DNA from: Flavobacteriales bacterium
GTDB lineage: Bacteria; Bacteroidota; Bacteroidia; Flavobacteriales_F; PHOS-HE28
Length of the DNA stretch: 64,000 nt
Direction: 5' to 3'
Assembly: GCA_026129465.1 (NCBI GenBank)
Contig: JAHCIA010000001.1
Span: 133,964 to 197,963 of the forward strand
Positions 33,373-42,081 of the stretch are shown one piece after another (the first letter of the stretch is position 1; the number at the start of each line of letters is the position of its first letter). Made by a program: the position numbers and the translations under genes. The notes below the pieces were generated by a model. The model searched no databases. It saw only the letters and a list, made by a program, of their open reading frames with translations, and was not told the DNA's origin.

Positions 33373-34080
33373 TCACAAGCCCCTCAGGTCGCAACGCAAG
33401 ACGCTACCATCGGCCACCACTTTGGCATCCTGGCCTGCGCGGAATACTTTCATGTCACCCCCTGCCAGGGTCATGGTATTGCCCTCGACCTTCAGGAGCG
33501 ACCCCTCCCGCAGGCCCACCACCGGCATCGCGGGGTTCAGGGCCAGGAACTCACCGATCCGCTGTTCGCGGCTTTCTCCGCCATGGCCCGGTATGGTGTC
33601 CTCCGTGAAGTGTGGATTGATCTGGAAGGGTACCAGGTTCATGGCGCGCATGGTGGGCACCTCCACGATGGGCATGTCGTTGGTGGTCATGATGGAAGGG
33701 CAGGCCACGTTGGCACCCGCGCTCCAGCCCAGGTACGGCAGGCCCTTGCGCACACGTTCGCCGATGGCGCGCACCAGCCCCGTGCGGTAGAGCTGGCGCA
33801 GCAACAGGAAGGAATTGCCACCGCCCACCGCCACGGCGTCCACGGTCTCCAAGGCCTTCGCTGGGTCGGCCTCGCAGTGCAGGGGCACGATCGCCACACC
33901 CATATCGGCGAATACCGGCGCGACCTTCTCCGCATAGGCGTCCTGCTGTTCCTCCGCTGCGGCGAAGGGCACGAAGGCCACGCGCTGGCGGCCTTGCAGG
34001 AAGGTGGCGACATGGGCCCGTGGCCAAGTGAAGAATGGCTCACCTGGCAGGGTGGAGTTGGACAGCAGCAACAGTTCCAT
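33373..34080 (-). CDS. pepE: Peptidase E (alpha-aspartyl dipeptidase, S51)
   Basis: 235 residues. The nucleophile motif GWSAGAN places the serine at 120, with Asp135 (TTNDMP) and His157 (INPHFTE), matching the positions of the Salmonella PepE catalytic triad. It cleaves N-terminal aspartyl dipeptides in the cytoplasm, consistent with the peptide import and Asp/Glu-releasing peptidase elsewhere in the window. It is the last ordinary chromosomal gene before the repeat-rich accessory region. Confidence 0.94.
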   Translation of the reverse strand: MELLLLSNSTLPGEPFFTWPRAHVATFLQGRQRVAFVPFAAAEEQQDAYAEKVAPVFADMGVAIVPLHCEADPAKALETVDAVAVGGGNSFLLLRQLYRTGLVRAIGERVRKGLPYLGWSAGANVACPSIMTTNDMPIVEVPTMRAMNLVPFQINPHFTEDTIPGHGGESREQRIGEFLALNPAMPVVGLREGSLLKVEGNTMTLAGGDMKVFRAGQDAKVVADGSVLRCDLRGL

Positions 34081-34227
34081 GGGGCAAGCTTACGAAGGGT
34101 GCCGTGGAAGGCTGGTGCCTTGGCCTGTACCTTCCCCAAGGAGTGGCCGAACTTAGGGGAAGCTTACACCCGCTCTGGCCAAGCGTGACGCCAAGCGCCA
34201 CCGCCTGGCCGTGGCCGGGTTCCCCCC

Positions 34228-34254
34228 GCTCCCGCGGATCTGCGATCCGTGGTC
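34228..34254. repeat. REP-like hairpin downstream of RAYT gene
   Basis: One copy of the local hairpin repeat in inverted orientation: the palindrome cggatc-tgc-gatccg at 34235-34249 with its flanking gctcccg. It lies 4 bp beyond the RAYT stop and marks the left edge of the repeat-rich region. Confidence 0.75.
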
Positions 34255-34258
34255 CTTC

Positions 34259-34843
34259 TCATTGGATCTCTTGATCATTGAGTACGACTTGGTGATCTGT
34301 GATCACATCCCCCCAGATCGTCTCCAGCTTCAGCATGCCCGGCAAACCCGCCTCATCCCGAGCGCTCGAGTAGAGGTAATGGTGCGGCTCCTCAACCACC
34401 CCCTCTTCCACCGGGTTGCGATGAATGTACCGCAGCTTCTGCTGGATGATGTCCACGCGGCGCAGCCACACGGGATGCAGGTCGTGCTGCCAGAGCTGGA
34501 TGCCGCCATCGGGCTTGCGCAAGTGCGCCAGCAGCCACTCCCTACGGCTCTCCTGCGGGTTATCCTCGATGGCCTTGACCACCGCCTTGGCCGTGAACTT
34601 CTTGTGGTCGCGCAAGATGTCCTGCAATTTGTGGCCGGGACGGGCACGGGCGATCAGATGCACGTGGTTGCTCATGATGCACCACGCGAAGAGCGCCAGG
34701 CCCTTCTCGCGCTGGCAATGCCGCAAGCTCTCCACCACGATGTCCTTATACGCTGGCCGCGTGAACACATCCACCCAGCCCACGGTGGCATAGGTGAGGT
34801 AGTGCAGGTCCTCCTGGTCGTGGATCTTGTGGTTGCGGGACAC
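34259..34843 (-). CDS. REP-associated tyrosine transposase (RAYT), Y1/IS200-like
   Basis: 194 residues from GTG 34843. The start is chosen because the derived N-terminus MSRNHKIHD is also kept in a second truncated copy at 39645-39671 and is typical of the family; an upstream in-frame ATG at 34870 is less likely. The HUH motif is SNHVHLI; the catalytic Tyr is probably in KLRYIHRNPVEEG. Y1 enzymes cut single-stranded DNA at hairpins; RAYTs are domesticated and process nearby REP hairpins instead of moving themselves. Hairpin repeats flank it on both sides and spread through 34.2-40.2 kb, as expected. A -7-like TATCTTCG box lies just upstream. Confidence 0.9.
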   Translation of the reverse strand: MSRNHKIHDQEDLHYLTYATVGWVDVFTRPAYKDIVVESLRHCQREKGLALFAWCIMSNHVHLIARARPGHKLQDILRDHKKFTAKAVVKAIEDNPQESRREWLLAHLRKPDGGIQLWQHDLHPVWLRRVDIIQQKLRYIHRNPVEEGVVEEPHHYLYSSARDEAGLPGMLKLETIWGDVITDHQVVLNDQEIQ

Positions 34844-34908
34844 TGAACGAAGATATCGGTGGCCGATCACAGATCGGCATCAGCATGCGGCCCATGCCTG
34901 AGCCATAG

Positions 34909-35113
34909 GGACCACGGATCAAAGATCCGAGGGAGCCATCAGGGAACATTCGCGCGAGCGGGCGATCAGGGAACATTCGCGGGAGGGGGGGGAGAAGACC
35001 ACGGATCGCAGATCCGCGGGAGCGAACAGGGGACATTCGCGGGAGCTGTTTGAGCTACTGTGGCCACGGATCCAAGATCCGCGGCAGCGTTACAGATCCG
35101 CGCTAGCGGGGGC
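34909..35113. repeat. REP-like hairpin cluster between RAYT and XRE fragment 1
   Basis: It contains three hairpins, at 34915-34929 (loop aaa), 35002-35016 (loop gca) and 35067-35081 (loop caa), each of the form cgg-atc/gat-ccg followed by a gggagc or ggcagc tail, with interspersed acattcgcgggagc and gctagcggggg units. Positions 35024-35110 are repeated without change at 37360-37446. Confidence 0.8.
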
Positions 35114-35117
35114 GGCC

Positions 35118-35360
35118 GTGGACATGGACAAGCGCATGATAGCCCGCTACGAGGCCGACCAAGCCGCGCCGTCCATCCATGCGGCCGCAAGGCTCGCACG
35201 GGCCGCCAGTGTGTCCCTCGACGTGCTGGGCGGACTTGACGCCAGCGACCACGATCCCGAGCTAGGCCGTTTGCTCGCTCAGCTGGCGGCACTGCCGGAA
35301 GCCGACCGCACAGCCGCAAGGCGTGTGCTGGCCGGACTGCTCAAGCTCAACGAAGGGTAG
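35118..35360 (+). pseudogene. XRE-family regulator, N-terminally truncated (fragment 1)
   Basis: The 80-residue frame starts within the second half of a Cro/C1-type HTH: KRMIARYEADQAAPSIHAA is the recognition helix and following turn, then LARAASVSLDVLGG and a C-terminal helical tail. The first HTH helices are absent; the coding match begins directly after a repeat unit (gctagcggggg, 35102-35112). It is best read as a broken gene left after repeat-mediated rearrangement. It might still be translated from ATG 35118, but it could not form a full HTH. Confidence 0.65.
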
Positions 35361-35368
35361 GAAGGCCA

Positions 35369-35416
35369 CGGATCACAGCCGCAGCAGCGATCAGGGAAGA
35401 TTAGCGGGAGCGGGGG
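35369..35416. repeat. Degenerate REP-like element at the end of cassette A
   Basis: A decayed hairpin (cggatc-aca-gccg, from 35369) is followed by agattagcgggagcgggggg (35398-35417). The repeat runs into the partner gene of RHS cassette A and supplies its last codons and stop. Confidence 0.55.
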
Positions 35417-35898
35417 GTGTAGTGGGCCGGGAACCGCTTCTTCCGAAGGATAAATCGCCGCTCCTTTGTCGAAGGTGTATACTTCACTACGTCCATTCTG
35501 AAGGCCATCTCGTCAAGACACTTGAAGCCTTCCAGCTTAAACATCTGCTTGGTGCTGGTGTTGATCGCGACCAAGAACTCAGTGTTCACCTCATGATTCA
35601 GCCTAATGCGCACACTGGTTGTATCCGGAACTTGACGCCCCGTCATCATCTCATTGGTCATTGCACAGAATACATAATTCACCGGATATCCCTTGGCTTG
35701 AACGAAGTGATATCCGTATCGCCATGTGCCGTCAATGAAGCCTTGTACTTCTTCTTGGGGACGCATTGACATTTCATAAGCGTCCGTAAGCAAGAGCATG
35801 CGTGCATTGAAGAAGATAAAGGCTGTGTCCAATCCTTGGGCCTGCACATAACCACAGCACATGTTCAGGGAAGCCAGCAATACCAGCGGCGCTCTCAT
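35401..35898 (-). CDS. Exported protein downstream of RHS tip A (possible immunity/partner)
   Basis: 165 residues with a signal peptide (MRAPLVLLASLNMCCGYVQAQ). The mature part has no recognised family and contains WRYGYHFVQAKGYPVNYVF. The ATG overlaps the stop of the RHS gene (ATGA), so the two are translationally coupled, the arrangement of toxin/immunity pairs. Since it is exported and the RHS tip looks like a metalloprotease, periplasmic protection is possible but unproven. The final residues (TPRSR) and stop are encoded by the neighbouring repeat, so the natural C-terminus may have been altered. Base composition is less GC-rich than in the flanking core genes. Confidence 0.65.
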   Translation of the reverse strand: MRAPLVLLASLNMCCGYVQAQGLDTAFIFFNARMLLLTDAYEMSMRPQEEVQGFIDGTWRYGYHFVQAKGYPVNYVFCAMTNEMMTGRQVPDTTSVRIRLNHEVNTEFLVAINTSTKQMFKLEGFKCLDEMAFRMDVVKYTPSTKERRFILRKKRFPAHYTPRSR

Positions 35899-37229
35899 GG
35901 CCGGACGAATCCAGAAGGCATTAAGCCACGTGACCTTTCCAGTGCCTTGTACCTACGCTCTTCCTCATCCGCCGCCTGACCACTTGGGTCCCCCGGGCCG
36001 TGGTGATCCTCAAAAGCAGCATTGGGATTAAGACGCTGCCATTGGGTATGTTCCATCATATTATGAACCAAGTACATAACATGGCCTTTCTCATGGGCTA
36101 CTGTTAGAGCCGTAGTCTTACGAGCAAGAGACACATGCACCGTATTATCTCCATGTCTGGATTTGATCGTGTAATGAGAGAAGACACCATCTTGGAATGT
36201 GTATACGTTCGCATGGACTTCGCTCTTCCCATGATGTCCTCCACCTGTCTGCATGCCCCCCCCATCCGTCATTTGCGCAAGCGTCACGACCATTGATGGG
36301 TCGATACCAACGAAGACATCTACTACGTTGCCAGATGGATCCATCAGGTTGTCAAGCTGTGAATAGCCCTCCGGATCGGTGAATGCGTACTGATTCAGAA
36401 ACTGCTCGACGGCATTGAAATTTTCCGTCGCCGTCGAAAGAGCAGACTCTGCGCTTTTCAGGGCGCCCCTAGCATCCTTGACAGCAGCCTGATATCCTTT
36501 ATAGGCCTCCTTGTTTCCCTTATCCACAGGGCTTGCAAGTAGGCCGTCAAGCTTACCCTTCGCATCGTCGCGATTCTTTTGAGCCGCATCCTTCTCCTCC
36601 TTATGAGAATTTTTGACCTTCAGACCATTGGGGTCAACTAATACTATTGGATTGTTTGAGAAAACGGCATAAGGACTTTCGCAAGACCTTGACATTGGAT
36701 CAATGTTCCATCGCCGTCCCACCCTCGGATCGTACTGCCAGAACTCAGCGGTGTAGCTGGTGCCTTCGCTTCCGTACACCTCATTATCCTTTTCTTGTCC
36801 GTTGAACCCGAACCTGTACGCGTCACTGCTGTAATTGCGTCCTGGCAGCAGGGAGCCGAAGGGTTCATACCCCTGTGCGGAGATCACCTCGGCTTGGAAG
36901 GGGCTGCCGGCCCCGGCACCATCCAGCAGGCGCCCGGTAACAACCGTGGTCACGTTGCCCAGGTGGTCGGTCAACTCATAGCGCAAGCGCGCCGCAGGGA
37001 TCGGTTGCGGATGCGGCCCCGGCATGGTGGTTAGCCCGTAGAGCTCCGCCTCACGCGTATAAGTGCCCAGGCGGCTGCTGCCATACAGGTGCCGCTCGGT
37101 GACCTTGAAGCTCATACTGCCGGTGTTCTGGTATCGGTACACGGCCATGATGTTGCCTTGTGCATCACGAATGTAGTGCTCGCGGTAGCCGGTGAACTGC
37201 AGGACCTCTTCCACATCGTGGACCTCCAT
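35895..37229 (-). CDS. RHS core fragment with metalloprotease-like C-terminal tip (cassette A)
   Basis: 444 residues. Positions 1-200 are the end of an RHS repeat protein: [14 protein letters not shown], then [10 protein letters not shown], and the core boundary YDPRVGRRWNIDP with PYAVFSNNPIVLVDP. After it come a helical linker (about 208-280) and an unrelated tip with HEKGH at 379-383, the HExxH zinc-protease motif. No signal peptide and no upstream YD repeats are present, and the shared 5' part is a duplicated segment, so this is an orphan cassette, not a full RHS gene. Expression may need recombination with a full-length RHS gene. The tip is more AT-rich than the core. Confidence 0.82.
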   Translation of the reverse strand: MEVHDVEEVLQFTGYREHYIRDAQGNIMAVYRYQNTGSMSFKVTERHLYGSSRLGTYTREAELYGLTTMPGPHPQPIPAARLRYELTDHLGNVTTVVTGRLLDGAGAGSPFQAEVISAQGYEPFGSLLPGRNYSSDAYRFGFNGQEKDNEVYGSEGTSYTAEFWQYDPRVGRRWNIDPMSRSCESPYAVFSNNPIVLVDPNGLKVKNSHKEEKDAAQKNRDDAKGKLDGLLASPVDKGNKEAYKGYQAAVKDARGALKSAESALSTATENFNAVEQFLNQYAFTDPEGYSQLDNLMDPSGNVVDVFVGIDPSMVVTLAQMTDGGGMQTGGGHHGKSEVHANVYTFQDGVFSHYTIKSRHGDNTVHVSLARKTTALTVAHEKGHVMYLVHNMMEHTQWQRLNPNAAFEDHHGPGDPSGQAADEEERRYKALERSRGLMPSGFVRP

Positions 37230-37359
37230 GAGGCACGCAAGGCGCTGAGCAACTGAACCACAGGGCCAGCGCTACCCCATGGCCGGTTGCAAACTGGCCG
37301 CAAGGCCTATCCCTTGGCCGGGACCGGATGAGGACCACGGGTCGCAGACCCGCGGGAGC
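36857..37359. repeat. Direct repeat copy A (RHS core 3' segment and upstream flank)
   Basis: About 500 bp, matching copy B (39116-39618) with a single difference seen (37332 g, 39591 a). Copy C (41727-42060) shares the first 334 bp with only a few changes near its left end. The repeat covers both coding RHS core and, in A and B, about 130 bp upstream of the start plus the first hairpin, so whole segments were copied or converted. Confidence 0.9.
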
Positions 37360-37450
37360 GAACAGGGGACATTCGCGGGAGCTGTTTGAGCTACTGTGGC
37401 CACGGATCCAAGATCCGCGGCAGCGTTACAGATCCGCGCTAGCGGGGGGG
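37331..37450. repeat. REP-like hairpin cluster between RHS A and XRE fragment 2
   Basis: Hairpins lie at 37338-37352 (cgggtc-gca-gacccg) and 37403-37417 (cggatc-caa-gatccg), followed by gctagcgggggg. In the first, the central A-T pair of the usual stem is replaced by G-C on both arms. With the 39597 copy this is the only stem change, and it keeps pairing. Positions 37360-37446 duplicate 35024-35110. With the adjoining duplicated flank it fills the otherwise gene-free 37230-37549. Confidence 0.8.
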
Positions 37451-37549
37451 GGCATCGCCCGAAAATAGCACTCGGAGTTCTCCCATCTCGCAGGGTCCCC
37501 TCGTGCCTCGGGAGACCCTGCGGAGGTCTGGGTCTCCACCGATTACCTC

Positions 37550-37714
37550 ATGAGCGGCAACAGCGCCGACCTGGCCCAGGAGAGCATTCAGGACAAGGCC
37601 CTGATCAACCTGTTCCAACGCGTGCAACGCCTGGAACCTGCCGAGCGCGATGTGGTCACTTCCTTGCTCGATGCCTTCCTGTTCCGACAGGAGACCAAGA
37701 AGCAACTGGCCTAG
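37550..37714 (+). pseudogene. XRE-family regulator, C-terminal remnant (fragment 2)
   Basis: 54 residues from ATG 37550; the matching frame extends back to about 37532 (VSTDYLMSG), the usual end of a Cro/C1 HTH domain. The tail (DKALINLFQRVQRLEPAERD to ETKKQLA) is the C-terminal helix region of this regulator class. The whole HTH is missing. Upstream lies a repeat cluster ending near 37450. It is clearly a remnant. Confidence 0.6.
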
Positions 37715-37768
37715 CAACGGGCCACTGATCGCAGGACCTGTCCCGCCTTAGCGGGATCAGCGGCAGGC

Positions 37769-38125
37769 CTAGGGAAGGCGGCGCGATTGGACCTTGGCGC
37801 CATGTACGTAGTAGCCATCTTCTCTTAGAGCGCCTTGGCCGTCGTAGATCTGATAGTATCCGAGTAATCGGCCTTTCTTTAGGTAACAGCGCATCTTGAT
37901 GAGACCGGAGCGGTCGAGTATGAGGTAGGCCCCGCTGAACTTGGCCTTGTAGCGGATGACCTCGATGCCTTGCGGGAAGACACTGCAATAAAGAGTGTCA
38001 GAGCCAACCAGAAGAGCGGCGTACATGCCATCGGTGGCCGGGAGTGATTTGGTGAACGAGAAGACCTGGCCATGGGCCTTGGCGCTTACATAGAGCAACA
38101 GGATCGTAGCTATCCACTTGGTCAT
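37769..38125 (-). CDS. Exported small protein downstream of RHS tip B (possible immunity/partner)
   Basis: 118 residues with a signal peptide (MTKWIATILLLYVSAKAHG). The rest resembles short MORN-like or toxin_YwqK-like repeats (YLKKGRLLGYYQIYDGQGALREDGYYVHGAKV), but the match is weak. It starts 7 bp after the stop of the RHS B cassette, so it is very likely cotranscribed. Immunity function is inferred from position only. Confidence 0.65.
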   Translation of the reverse strand: MTKWIATILLLYVSAKAHGQVFSFTKSLPATDGMYAALLVGSDTLYCSVFPQGIEVIRYKAKFSGAYLILDRSGLIKMRCYLKKGRLLGYYQIYDGQGALREDGYYVHGAKVQSRRLP

Positions 38126-38132
38126 GATACTG

Positions 38133-39488
38133 CTACTCGAAGTCTTCGCGCGTACTCTTTCCCTTTTCAGGATCTACCCGATCCATCAGCTCATCCTTCT
38201 GATAGAAGTCGTTGTAATCGTGCTCGATCTGCATGATGTTGCCAACCTTCTTTGGGTCAACACCGAAGAACTTGGCCTTGAACTCGTCACTGAAACGCGT
38301 GTGGGACTTGTTCCATCCTTCATGTGCAGCCTGATGCTCAAGGTCAATGAACCCAGCACCATACTTCTGATCAAAGACCTTCACTAAGTCCTCGCCAAAA
38401 GTGCCATTAACAAAGTTCCTAGCAAACGCGAGCGCGTACTTGACATGAACGGTAGACTCATGGCCTGCTGTGTGGTAGATCGCGATCAGGTCACCTTGTA
38501 CCATGTCATAGGTGCCGTCCTCCTTCTTTCCTATCGGTTGGTTGGTACTAACGTTCACGTACTGCAACATATGAGTCTGCGCGCTCATCTTGCGAACATG
38601 ATCAGGTGTTAGGTCACTGCCGTTCACGTATTGACCATCAACAGCGAAGAAGGCCGGAGATGAACCACCTTGGTCTGGATCTATGCCAAAGCGAACGGTC
38701 ACGTTATCGTGAAGGCTACCCTTACCACCTGCATCTCCCCAGAACTTGCGAGCCTGCCGCGCATTCACCACATCACGATAGATCTCCTTTCCTGACTCGG
38801 ACTTGATGTACGAAAGCGTTGCCTTGTACACCGAAGGGCTGAACAGCCTCATCGCTAAACTGAACTTCAATCGTTCCCCATCGGGATCGACGAACATCAA
38901 TGGAGAGTTCGCAGCGAAGCCATAGGGAGTGGCATCCGGGTAGCTCGTAGCGTAGGGATCCATGCTGAGCCAGCGGCCAACCCTCGGATCCAGAATACGC
39001 GATCCGAAGTTGTAAGACGTTCCAGTTGAACCGTGAACCTCATCGTCCTTCTCGGCTCCATTAAATCCGAAGCGGTAGCTCGATGAGCTGTAGTTCCTCC
39101 CTGGTAGAAGCGACCCGAAGGGTTCATACCCCTGTGCGGAGATCACCTCGGCTTGGAAGGGGCTGCCGGCCCCGGCACCATCCAGCAGGCGCCCGGTAAC
39201 AACCGTGGTCACGTTGCCCAGGTGGTCGGTCAACTCATAGCGCAAGCGCGCCGCAGGGATCGGTTGCGGATGCGGCCCCGGCATGGTGGTTAGCCCGTAG
39301 AGCTCCGCCTCACGCGTATAAGTGCCCAGGCGGCTGCTGCCATACAGGTGCCGCTCGGTGACCTTGAAGCTCATACTGCCGGTGTTCTGGTATCGGTACA
39401 CGGCCATGATGTTGCCTTGTGCATCACGAATGTAGTGCTCGCGGTAGCCGGTGAACTGCAGGACCTCTTCCACATCGTGGACCTCCAT
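38133..39488 (-). CDS. RHS core fragment with unknown C-terminal tip (cassette B)
   Basis: 451 residues. The first ~135 residues are the same as in cassette A, then come the core boundary LDPRVGRWLSMDP and PYGFAANSPLMFVDPDG. The tip (about 205-451) has no recognised family. It contains AGHESTVHVKYAL and HQAAHEGWNKSH, His/Glu-rich segments that could be catalytic, but no standard nuclease or protease motif. There is no signal peptide or YD-repeat shell, so it is an orphan C-terminal cassette. Confidence 0.78.
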   Translation of the reverse strand: MEVHDVEEVLQFTGYREHYIRDAQGNIMAVYRYQNTGSMSFKVTERHLYGSSRLGTYTREAELYGLTTMPGPHPQPIPAARLRYELTDHLGNVTTVVTGRLLDGAGAGSPFQAEVISAQGYEPFGSLLPGRNYSSSSYRFGFNGAEKDDEVHGSTGTSYNFGSRILDPRVGRWLSMDPYATSYPDATPYGFAANSPLMFVDPDGERLKFSLAMRLFSPSVYKATLSYIKSESGKEIYRDVVNARQARKFWGDAGGKGSLHDNVTVRFGIDPDQGGSSPAFFAVDGQYVNGSDLTPDHVRKMSAQTHMLQYVNVSTNQPIGKKEDGTYDMVQGDLIAIYHTAGHESTVHVKYALAFARNFVNGTFGEDLVKVFDQKYGAGFIDLEHQAAHEGWNKSHTRFSDEFKAKFFGVDPKKVGNIMQIEHDYNDFYQKDELMDRVDPEKGKSTREDFE

Positions 39489-39618
39489 GAGGCACGCAAG
39501 GCGCTGAGCAACTGAACCACAGGGCCAGCGCTACCCCATGGCCGGTTGCAAACTGGCCGCAAGGCCTATCCCTTGGCCGGGACCGGATGAAGACCACGGG
39601 TCGCAGACCCGCGGGAGC
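39116..39618. repeat. Direct repeat copy B (RHS core 3' segment and upstream flank)
   Basis: Second copy of the ~500-bp segment described at 36857-37359, almost identical including synonymous positions and the non-coding flank. Confidence 0.9.
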
Positions 39619-39644
39619 CATCAGGGAACATTCGCGGGAGCGGG
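39597..39644. repeat. REP-like hairpin upstream of RHS B
   Basis: Hairpin 39597-39611 (cgggtc-gca-gacccg, the G-C variant) is followed by gggagccatcagggaacattcgcgggagcgggg in two units. It ends exactly where the RAYT remnant begins. Confidence 0.7.
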
Positions 39645-39708
39645 GTCGTGGATCTTGTAGTTCCTGCTCACTGATCGAAAGTAGGGCACGCCGATCACAG
39701 ATAGGCTG
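39645..39708 (-). pseudogene. Remnant of a second RAYT gene (5' end and upstream region)
   Basis: On the minus strand GTG 39671 opens MSRNYKIHD, matching the RAYT N-terminus MSRNHKIHD, and then stops matching at the repeat boundary at 39645. The upstream ~37 bp also align with the sequence before the intact RAYT gene (gccgatcacagat shared). By eye about 47 of 61 bases agree, so it is an older, diverged copy rather than a recent duplicate. Confidence 0.7.
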
Positions 39709-39740
39709 TAGCGCTACGGCTCCAACTCGGTGATGGAAGA

Positions 39741-39840
39741 AGACCACGGATCAAAGATCCGAGGGAGCCATCAGGGAAGATTAGCGGGAGCGGGGTGCTA
39801 CAGATCCGCGTTAGCGGGGGGAACATTCGCGGGAGCGGGG
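39741..39840. repeat. REP-like hairpin cluster upstream of XRE fragment 3
   Basis: Hairpin 39747-39761 (cggatc-aaa-gatccg) is followed by agattagcgggagcgggg, cagatccgcgttagcggggg and acattcgcgggagcgggg units. The last unit ends 6 bp before the XRE fragment's ATG. Together with the duplicated flank, hairpin 39597 and the RAYT remnant it fills 39489-39845. Confidence 0.75.
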
Positions 39841-39845
39841 TGAAG

Positions 39846-40130
39846 ATGTCCCAGGAGGATCTGGCCAAGAAGCTCGGCATCCACGCCCCGATCATCGGCC
39901 GGTACGAGCGTGGTGAGGTGAAGCCTTCGATCGAGGTCGCCGCCAAGCTCGCCCAGGCCGTCGGCTCGTCGCTCGACTACCTCACGGGTCTTTCGGATCT
40001 GCAGCTGGACCAGGAGCTGATCGCCCGGATCAACGACCTGCACACGCTATCCGAGGAGGATCAACAGCACATCATGCGCACACTCGGCGCGTTGATCCGC
40101 GAGGCCAAGACCAGGAAGGCGTTCGGGTAG
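39846..40130 (+). pseudogene. XRE-family regulator lacking its first helix (fragment 3)
   Basis: 94 residues from ATG 39846: MSQEDLAKKLGIHAPIIGRYERGEVKPS is an HTH from its second helix on, followed by LAQAVGSSLDYLTG and a helical tail. Family members normally carry about 15 more residues (first helix) upstream; here a repeat unit stands in that place. An in-frame GTG at 39795 would add repeat-encoded residues only. It may be partly functional, as the recognition helix is present, but truncation is more likely. Confidence 0.6.
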
Positions 40131-40133
40131 GGC

Positions 40134-40176
40134 GGGTCCGCAGATCCGAACCAGCTACATCCGTGCTAGCGGGGGG
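40134..40176. repeat. Degenerate REP-like element at the end of cassette C
   Basis: A decayed hairpin (gggtc-cgca-gatcc, 40135-40147) is followed by gctagcgggggg (40165-40176), which supplies the last residues (SPR) and stop of the partner gene of cassette C. Confidence 0.55.
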
Positions 40177-40813
40177 ATATCTCAAACTCTGGCGAACCTT
40201 GAGCACCGAGTACAGGCATCTCTCGAATAAGCTGCTCATATAGGGTATAGTCTAGAGCGGTGAACCCCTGCCCTTTGAGTATTTCCAAGTATCGCAGTGC
40301 GTCCTCTTGACCATTCAGCATTGCACGAATCATGAGCACTTGGCCTGCATTCTGTTCATCCGGAAGGCTCTTCGCCTTGTTCTCGGCTTCACGAATCGCA
40401 ATCGCTTTTAACCGCTCATACTCTTGGGTCTTGCCAAGGAAGTAATTGCACATGGCTTCGTTAGCGAGCAACAAAGGCACTGGAGTCGGAGACATTGACT
40501 TGAGCTTGTGAAGGACGGGGATGCAGTCACCGTAATGCCCAATTGCGTAAAGTATCGTGAACTTGTTGTGGAGCGCTTGGTAGTAGTTCGTATCGCAATG
40601 GATGGCCCTGTCGATCAAGACGACCGCTGAGTCGAGTGACTCGTGGCGAGTAGTATCCATCTGATAGCTCACAAATGCCTCCATGGCCTGATTATTCAAC
40701 TCCTTACAATCCTCTCCAGCACTAGCGTCTTCGGAAGCCATAGAGCATGCGGACCAAGTCGCCAAGCACATGCCTGCCATTAGTGATACACTCCTCATGG
40801 CCGACAAATTCAT
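40166..40813 (-). CDS. Lipoprotein downstream of RHS tip C (possible immunity/partner)
   Basis: 215 residues from ATG 40813, which overlaps the TGA of the RHS C gene. The N-terminus ([25 protein letters not shown]) is a plausible lipoprotein signal, with the Cys near residue 23. The remainder is alpha-helical with tetratricopeptide-like spacing ([29 protein letters not shown]). Position suggests a partner of the RHS tip; no activity can be assigned. The terminal SPR and stop codon lie within the repeat. Confidence 0.65.
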
Positions 40814-42081
40814 TGGATTTTGGGGGCAACAATGAATGAGTCGCTTGAAGAATTCGGTACGATCCCGATTGTACCGGGCATCGCGGGTTGGAACCAACTC
40901 CCGTGCGCTTCTACAAGCACTCTTGTTGTGACGGATACACGATAGTTCGGAAGCAGCCCTTTAGAATCGGGTGGGGCCAAGTCGAACTCAGCCGCGCCAA
41001 TGTATCCAGCGGGAGCAAAGTACGATCCTTTGGGTGCTTGCAAGTCCTTGCGAGCAACAACATCTCCTGAGGCGTTGTACAAAGTCGCTGTTGAAGACGC
41101 GCGGACTTTTGATCCGTCTGACACTACGATTGGATCGACATAAGTCGAAACGCGAAGCTTTGGCGCACTCTTCGCGCCCGTGACCTGTGCCGAAGTATTT
41201 ACAGTCCAGACTACTTGCTTGTACTGCACATGAGGGCCTTCGGCATCCGGGACCTGCCCCCATTGACGGTTCTGCACAGGTTGCTCGCCACTAGAAGGGC
41301 TAACCTTATAGGTCTGCTCGGTTGGTGGTGTGAGTGTCTGACCAAGCGCTGGTGGTGCATTCCCGGCGTTGGTGCCCGGATTTCGTTTGAAGGCAGCGCC
41401 TGCGTGATCACCTGTACCGCTGTTGATGCCGCCTTGTCCATCCGGTCCAGCCTCAGAGACTTTATCAGGGGTTGGAGCGGCCTCCAGTCCTTCCAACTCC
41501 ACCATGTCTATCACACGGTTCTCACTGAACGCGTAAGGCGAGTTCCAAGGGTACTTGGCTGCCAGCGGGTCGATGCTCATAAACCTGCCAATCCTCGGAT
41601 CGTGCATTCGGTACTCGAACGCGTAGCTCGTGCCCGTTGAGCCGTTGATCTCGTCGTCATGTTCTTGACCTTGGAAGAGGTAACGATATGACCCTGAGGA
41701 GTAATTCCTTCCTGGCAGCAGACTTCCGAAGGGTTCATACCCCTGTGCGGAGACCACCTCGGCCTGGTAGGGGCTGCCGGCCCCGGCACCATCCAGCAGG
41801 CGCCCGGTAACAACCGTGGTCACGTTGCCCAGGTGGTCGGTCAACTCATAGCGCAAGCGCGCCGCAGGGATCGGTTGCGGATGCGGCCCCGGCATGGTGG
41901 TTAGCCCGTAGAGCTCCGCCTCACGCGTATAAGTGCCCAGGCGGCTGCTGCCATACAGGTGCCGCTCGGTGACCTTGAAGCTCATACTGCCGGTGTTCTG
42001 GTATCGGTACACGGCCATGATGTTGCCTTGTGCATCACGAATGTAGTGCTCGCGGTAGCCACCATTGTCCGGGTCGCCCAC
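40810..42081 (-). CDS. RHS core fragment with unknown C-terminal tip (cassette C)
   Basis: 423 residues if read from GTG 42081, but RHS similarity ([20 protein letters not shown]) runs on upstream in frame to about 42159, directly beside the stop codon of the OmpA-type gene, where a TGA closes the frame. The gene is thus cut at its 5' end and has no credible start or signal. The core boundary is [13 protein letters not shown] with [18 protein letters not shown] Pro/Gly-rich linker and a beta-rich tip of unknown family follow. It is an orphan cassette like A and B. Confidence 0.75.
41727..42060. repeat. Direct repeat copy C (RHS core 3' segment)
   Basis: Third copy of the RHS core segment. 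It matches copies A and B over 334 bp with about three changes near the left end (around 41753-41768), then diverges upstream into a different RHS sequence. Confidence 0.9.

Follow-up and report, generated by a model that had tools for sequence, protein, structure and literature searches.

Probable recognition hairpins of a RAYT in a Flavobacteriales genome, and covariation of a RAYT residue with a hairpin arm base

We analysed a 64,000-nucleotide stretch of a Flavobacteriales bacterium genome (contig JAHCIA010000001.1, positions 133,964 to 197,963; hereafter the window), in which the gene for a REP-associated tyrosine transposase (RAYT, or TnpAREP; REP, repetitive extragenic palindrome) lies among a cluster of short palindromes. 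The window holds exactly eight matches to CGGRTCNNNGAYCCG, at 34235, 34915, 35002, 35067, 37338, 37403, 39597 and 39747. Their pattern, CGGRTC-NNN-GAYCCG, spans 15 nt with 6-bp arms and a 3-nt loop, and dinucleotide-shuffled versions of the window contain a mean of 0.03 such palindromes, with a maximum of one. An initial annotation had read the cluster as a selected, REP-like hairpin family; its count of eight, the GGGAGC/GGCAGC tail following seven of the eight on the plus strand, the inversion of the copy at 34235 and the CGGGTC/GACCCG arms at 37338 and 39597 are all borne out. The 5′ tags of the window copies are GCTC or GCTG, and each hairpin was assigned to the strand on which the tag is 5′ and the loop begins with T. 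The gene and its hairpins are as follows:

34259..34870, minus strand: RAYT/TnpAREP gene, 203 codons from a GTG at 34870
34235..34249, plus strand: hairpin core CGGATC-TGC-GATCCG, downstream of the RAYT, with 5′ tag GCTCCCG at 34228-34234
34915..34929, minus strand: hairpin core, tag-strand loop TTT, closest copy upstream of the RAYT
35002..35016, minus strand: hairpin core, loop TGC
35067..35081, minus strand: hairpin core, loop TTG, with three extra outer pairs (GCC/GGC) beside a G.T
37338..37352, minus strand: hairpin core with a compensatory change, CGGGTC-TGC-GACCCG
37403..37417, minus strand: hairpin core, loop TTG, a copy of that at 35067
39597..39611, minus strand: hairpin core CGGGTC-TGC-GACCCG, inside a duplicated segment
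39747..39761, minus strand: hairpin core, loop TTT, adjoining a RAYT 5′-end relic
39644..39794, minus strand: RAYT 5′-end relic with hairpin, codons 1-18 at 39645-39698, 77% identity to 34816-34962

The gene product matches the RAYT profile NF047646 at 92.4 bits, above its curated cut-off of 80, and also matches Y1_Tnp. An alternative GTG start at 34843, giving 194 codons, is equally likely. The translation carries an NHVH HUH motif (residues 68-71), WQ (residues 127-128) and the catalytic Tyr148 within YIHRNP, with a lysine at residue 91 and a glutamine at residue 125. Residues H60, H62, Y139 and N143, in the numbering of the 194-residue form, are invariant in our alignment A1, all 72 members of which match NF047646 at E <= 0.001. 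The structure model of the protein has a mean pLDDT (predicted local distance difference test score) of 89.4, and its best match in the PDB is 4er8, the E. coli TnpAREP-REP complex (E 5.8e-9). Defence-system models gave no match to the RAYT, and no tnpB was noted, with no search aimed at tnpB made.

To relate the hairpins to the enzyme, we surveyed RAYT relatives picked by protein similarity only, mostly in draft genomes, and searched both 250-nt flanks for 6-bp palindromes with 3-nt loops that have the same arm on either side. Such same-arm pairs occur at 49 of 131 RAYTs in set 1, vs none of 115 windows 1 kb away; at 36 of 74 in set 2, a separate genome collection, vs 0/66 and 1/63 controls; and at 22 of 56 in set 3, vs 0/55 controls. 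Set 1 omits two of 136 loci lacking a tblastn hit and three more with too little flank; set 2 omits two of 80 loci that overlap set 1 and four of the other 78 with too little flank; set 3 omits 13 of 70 overlapping loci and then one of 57 with too little flank. Altogether, 107 of 261 RAYT loci have a same-arm pair, and other genes in the same loci have none (0/104). Among loop lengths of 0-12 tested in set 1, three is the peak. For base counts, the locus L042, a tandem array of other repeats, was removed from the 49 pairs of set 1 to leave 48, and set 2 contributes 38 pairs, this step having no flank minimum. These 86 loci carry 50 different arm sequences, and in set 1 the divergence of the arms follows RAYT distance (Mantel r 0.33, reached by 0 of 2000 permutations). 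The cluster in the window is a minor example of a family spread over related genomes.

The full hairpin is longer than 15 nt, with three more covarying pairs outside the arms, often a G.T between, a T-first loop and often a 5′ GYT tag. The six arm pairs were imposed by the search and are no evidence in themselves; the outer pairs were not imposed. At offset 1 beyond the arms, 32 and 35 of the 86 loci (upstream and downstream, respectively) have G.T, whereas 35 and 40 have a normal pair. Offsets 2-4 are Watson-Crick upstream in 59, 52 and 51 loci, vs shuffle means of 28, 27 and 25 (0 of 2000 shuffles reach the observed counts), and are paired downstream in 61, 48 and 52; offsets 5-8 show no pairing above shuffles. 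In a slid control, one pairing (offset 2, slid by -2) also reached 50/86, a value we put down to conserved C and G in those columns. The loop begins with T in 74 upstream hairpins and in 75 downstream hairpins read as the reverse complement, so the two ends are inverted. A GYT tag stands at -7 to -5 in 32 of 86 loci on each side, vs five in the mirror position, and just three of 172 tags are GTAG. The claim of a selected hairpin in the initial annotation stands in part: the paired structure is under constraint and linked to the RAYT, but the 15 nt of the palindrome form no more than the upper portion of the hairpin. As a separate attempt at an unbiased pairing test, the tag plus left-arm pattern across the genus was swamped by coding background; with two mismatches in the own genome it gave 1133 and 1159 matches vs 828 and 834 in controls and is not used as evidence.

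Within the window, a compensatory change is found in segments that have been duplicated:

34991..35112, no strand assigned: composite repeat of ~123 nt with two hairpins, second copy at 37326-37448
37326..37448, no strand assigned: second composite copy, bearing the compensatory pair
36828..37382, no strand assigned: Rhs-core 5′ part plus hairpin, duplicated at 39087-39641 (97.8%)

Three substitutions and one indel separate the two composite copies. Two of those substitutions form the compensatory stem pair, A35005>G37341 and T35013>C37349; when three substitutions were placed at random, a pairing-preserving pair arose in 8e-4 of trials. Part of the composite, 35060-35112, is found at 96% identity in another species (G008). 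Because 36828-37382 and 39087-39641 are duplicates, the variant hairpins at 37338 and 39597 are one event, as they had been counted in the initial annotation, and the window copies are not independent of one another. The tail of the copy at 39597 differs from that at 37338 at three further sites, all matching the 34915 type; the 39597 copy is therefore a mosaic. Family-wide, the changed arm position (4) is a purine in 85 of 86 loci, which places the compensatory variant within the family rule.

Template-switch correction of quasi-palindromes is known in bacteria and can produce a compensatory event without selection, so the single event is weak evidence alone and the comparative data carry the case. 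A broader form of this alternative, in which mutation bias of this kind keeps the palindromes perfect with no selection for an enzyme site, draws on there being only one compensatory event in the window, and we judge it improbable. Template switching predicts that all mismatches are repaired, yet the offset-1 G.T persists, in one orientation, in the family counts given above, and also in most listed copies of the tandem arrays of genome G050. It likewise leaves unexplained the T-first loop, the presence of pairs around RAYTs but not control genes, and the coupling of arm sequence to the enzyme, to which we now turn.

We scanned 165 protein columns against the six arm positions over the 86 loci, with protein distance regressed out, and fixed four residue-arm rules before set 3 was retrieved. 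In the 22 new loci of set 3, scored blind, K91 goes with A/T at arm position 5 in 5/5 and S, G or T91 with C/G in 11/11, the six R loci being mixed (Fisher p 2.3e-4 for residue 91 and arm 5). Over all 108 loci, each of the 50 with K91 has A/T at arm 5; of the eight non-K loci with A/T there, seven have R91 (with A) and one has T91. On a tree from which the tested columns were excluded, residue 91 changes 16 times and arm 5 changes 14 times, with 12 changes common in branch and direction, parsimony counts that rest on a single-gene tree. Among 3,260 column-position pairs scanned on the tree, this pair ranks first (p 3.4e-6), and 20 bootstrap trees give 10-18 shared changes, with a binary test p of at worst 4.7e-10. 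Residues 15 and 57, nominal in the first scan, were dropped.

Common ancestry or base composition could in principle produce such an association, since related loci have both features in common and lysine has an AT-rich codon. This explanation appears even less probable than template switching: the other five arm positions share 0-1 tree changes with residue 91, vs 12 for arm 5; the coupling is present within all four GC strata; residue 91 differs as well in 12/12 of the closest pairs listed whose arm-5 classes differ; and the association reappeared in the blind set. The covariation of residue 91 with arm 5 is new here and suggests how the enzyme reads its DNA. When the profiles are aligned, residue 91 corresponds to K82 of E. 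coli TnpAREP (4er8), an adjacent one-residue insert leaving an uncertainty of one; according to Corneloup et al. (2021, PMC8266576), K82 lies in helix alpha-3 and contacts the REP stem at C27. The coupling of residue 125 with arm 3 is weaker and suggestive: in set 3, Q125 goes with A in 11 of 14 loci and non-Q residues in 0 of 8 (p 0.001). On balance we favour a RAYT hairpin code in which alpha-3 residue 91 selects arm pair 5 and residue 125 biases position 3, such that a lineage may switch its whole hairpin set by few substitutions.

The distribution of the motif was determined in the genome to which the window belongs, where the initial annotation had called for a count, and in the genus. 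The 3.88-Mb genome has 12 CGGRTC-NNN-GAYCCG palindromes, eight of them in the window; the reversed pattern gives two. Outside the window, the palindromes at C1:3047582, C1:3047645 and C1:3308988 have tag and tail, and that at C1:480281, which has neither, is taken as a chance match, leaving ~11 genuine copies in three places. The copy at C1:3308988 lies in a 91-nt stretch with 90% identity to the 3′ end of the RAYT and the hairpin there; with the relic at 39645-39698, this indicates that RAYT end sequences have been copied elsewhere in the genome, in which no full second copy of the window RAYT was found. Among relatives, genus genomes with a close RAYT average 9.1 motifs (n = 7) vs 1.6 in the rest (n = 38; Mann-Whitney p 1.6e-4), with at most 21 copies in any one genome. 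Orphan copies occur in genomes with a RAYT relic only or without a close RAYT (eight copies in G041), and the presence of the motif therefore does not require the enzyme. Another RAYT in the own genome, at C1:2756332, is broken; the genome's five GTAGCC-NNN-GGCTAC palindromes all lie around it, at 2755748-2756628, so RAYTs within one genome have their own hairpins; a RAYT in G010, at 2555539, has GTAGCC arms as well.

Two rearranged forms of the hairpin were seen in passing. At C1:3047582-3047659 (L010:1501-1578), neighbouring hairpins have exchanged outer halves, a GGC-type left with a GG-type right and vice versa, as if recombined at the common 15-mer. In G050, the same hairpin forms tandem arrays (L249-L252) with ~40- or 91-nt spacing, mostly distant from a RAYT.

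Taken with the survey, these data make it very likely that the window palindromes are recognition hairpins of the adjacent RAYT, an HUH/Y1 single-strand nuclease, and that arms and enzyme co-evolve. Two further alternatives each seem barely credible. The first has the hairpins act as RNA, as terminators or mRNA stabilisers, next to the RAYT by chance; they are GC-rich and mostly intergenic, and side roles of this type are assigned to REPs of other bacteria (PMC3733652), but no Rfam family reaches its gathering score in 33500-40500, the copies whose flanks were inspected are not followed by a T-run, and the other genes of the surveyed loci are not flanked. The second, equally poor, takes them as recombination sites of an Rhs cassette array with the RAYT as passenger: hairpins do stand at the borders of duplicated Rhs-core open reading frames (ORFs), but they flank RAYTs in many genomes picked regardless of Rhs genes, and duplication by homologous recombination requires no special site.

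Several findings weigh against recognition by the RAYT, or against the code proposed for it. An exact same-arm pair is lacking at 154 of 261 RAYT loci, some of which have other hairpins and some none; the GYT tag is confined to 32 of 86 loci per side; and the copy number in the own genome is low. R91 is promiscuous, occurring with A, C and G at arm 5. Two of the four pre-stated rules failed in the blind set and were rejected (residue 135/arm 6, p 0.39; residue 131/arm 4, p 1.0). The residue 125/arm 3 pair, with a binary tree test p of 1e-3, is 174th of 3,260 in the unselected scan, and the window RAYT itself has the less usual combination of Q125 and a G at arm 3, which occurs in 4 of the 65 Q loci.

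HUH/Y1 enzymes with this fold cleave single strands that have folded. If the hairpins are RAYT sites, the single-stranded DNA would fold as 5′-GYTN-[3 bp]-[G.T or pair]-[6-bp arm]-[TNN loop], and the RAYT would grip it through helix alpha-3 and the segment immediately preceding the WQ strand. The enzyme may read the loop T and the stem base pairs, with residue 91 near pair 5, and the 5′ tag would serve as foot, near which Tyr148 would cut and join. Inverted hairpins at both gene ends could let the RAYT act on the whole unit or on solo hairpins. We propose that enzyme and hairpin evolve as lock and key, residue 91 setting the accepted arm pair 5 and residue 125 probably biasing position 3. The window RAYT would process its own hairpins. 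The hairpin architecture, pairing constraint, RAYT linkage and residue-base coupling are computed results, as are near-identical units at unrelated sites in relatives; binding, cleavage, polarity and any mobility of the window copy are predictions.

Those units, of ~0.7 kb, occur twice in each of three genomes, near-identical, with nearly the same end points and unrelated flanks (identities of 91% for L110/L122, 95% for L021/L040 and 96.5% for L124/L132). Alignment scores of the flanks are near those of shuffles; the 5′ flank of L021/L040 scores 29 vs 18-25. An exact same-arm 6/3/6 pair is present only in L110/L122; the other two pairs of units end in other palindromes. These comparisons point to insertion sequence-like mobility of RAYT units in the relatives, though not of the window copy. 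In L110/L122, a second, larger palindrome lies outside the 6/3/6 hairpin at each end, bounded by GTACCCGCG/CGCGGGTAC.

As set out in the passages of Quentin et al. (2018, PMC6006769) on subclass 2.6 (group 5), RAYTs with NH[LIV]H, WQ and YIH[QN]NP, mostly from Bacteroidetes, have flanking structures termed 'atypical', which were manually found and lack GT[AG]G. The window RAYT appears to fit TnpAY1 subclass 2.6 (Bertels group 5), judged by motifs rather than a subclass profile: it has NHVH and WQ, and YIHRNP has R where Q or N is listed. Its named relatives are Bacteroidota by their titles, and it shares with the subclass the flanking atypical hairpins without GT[AG]G and their copies elsewhere in the genome. 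That description gives no sequence rule, unlike the fixed 6/3/6 form, G.T outer stem, T-first loop, partial GYT tag and arm-enzyme coupling seen here.

With E. coli TnpAREP/REP (4er8), as treated in the relevant sections of PMC8266576, the system has in common the fold, the HUH-Y site, a stem mismatch and a residue (K82 in E. coli) on a stem base, but the E. coli REP needs GTAG, whereas the feet here are GCTC-, GCTG- or GTTG-like and the arms short and perfect. The group 3 perfect-palindrome REPs of S. maltophilia and Marinomonas described there are similar in their small perfect stem, and a loop base is decisive for their activity; they differ in having a GTAG foot and in enzyme group. IS200/IS605 elements, in the same source, resemble the unit in their Y1 HUH transposase, subterminal hairpins and guide 5′ of the hairpin, but the IS200/IS605 profile NF033573 scores just 27.2 on the RAYT, below its cut-off of 55. 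The hairpins are REP-like and are not canonical REPs: they lack a GT[AG]G foot, and with ~11 copies at three places of the own genome they do not show the high-copy, dispersed, extragenic distribution of the canonical elements. In the literature searched at the level of titles and abstract openings, no account of these hairpins or of a residue-base code was found.

These data bear on how TnpAREP enzymes select their hairpins and on how the families of enzymes and repeats co-diverge. The biochemistry reported by Corneloup et al. (2021, PMC8266576) covers three enzyme/REP pairs; with over 100 enzyme-hairpin pairs matched in nature, and a single clear candidate for the specificity residue, such questions can be put to the test with short oligonucleotides. 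If true, the coupling would amount to a code by which a protein recognises a folded single-strand DNA site, and would offer a handle for re-targeting single-strand transposases.

Other repeats accompany the hairpins. A unit of ~20 nt, GGGAACATTCGCGGGAGC and variants, recurs after them on the plus strand, at 34942, 34969, 35029, 35394, 37365, 39624, 39774 and 39819. It resembles the 3′ half of a hairpin with a different arm type, and a related unit follows the hairpin of G008 (L014). Elsewhere in the survey, ~90 nt of flank is repeated on either side of the RAYT unit at L015 (G002:C34), and seven palindromes of the CCGTAAC-N-GTTACGG type, with 41-nt spacing, lie upstream of the RAYT at L026.

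Among neighbouring genes, XRE-like genes are no general companion of the hairpins across the genus. In the window, an XRE/RstR-like regulator at 39795-40130 (plus strand), its start apparently truncated, begins directly at a REP tail; a 40% relic of such a regulator follows the tail at 35112 (35136-35345, plus strand), and a similar C-terminal stretch may follow at ~37520-37715, as judged by eye. Three Rhs-core ORFs lie on the minus strand at 35895-37229, 38133-39488 and 40810-42081, the second of which matches TIGR03696. Their N-terminal parts are near-identical (self-match 96-98%) and their C-terminal parts differ, like displaced Rhs-CT cassettes.

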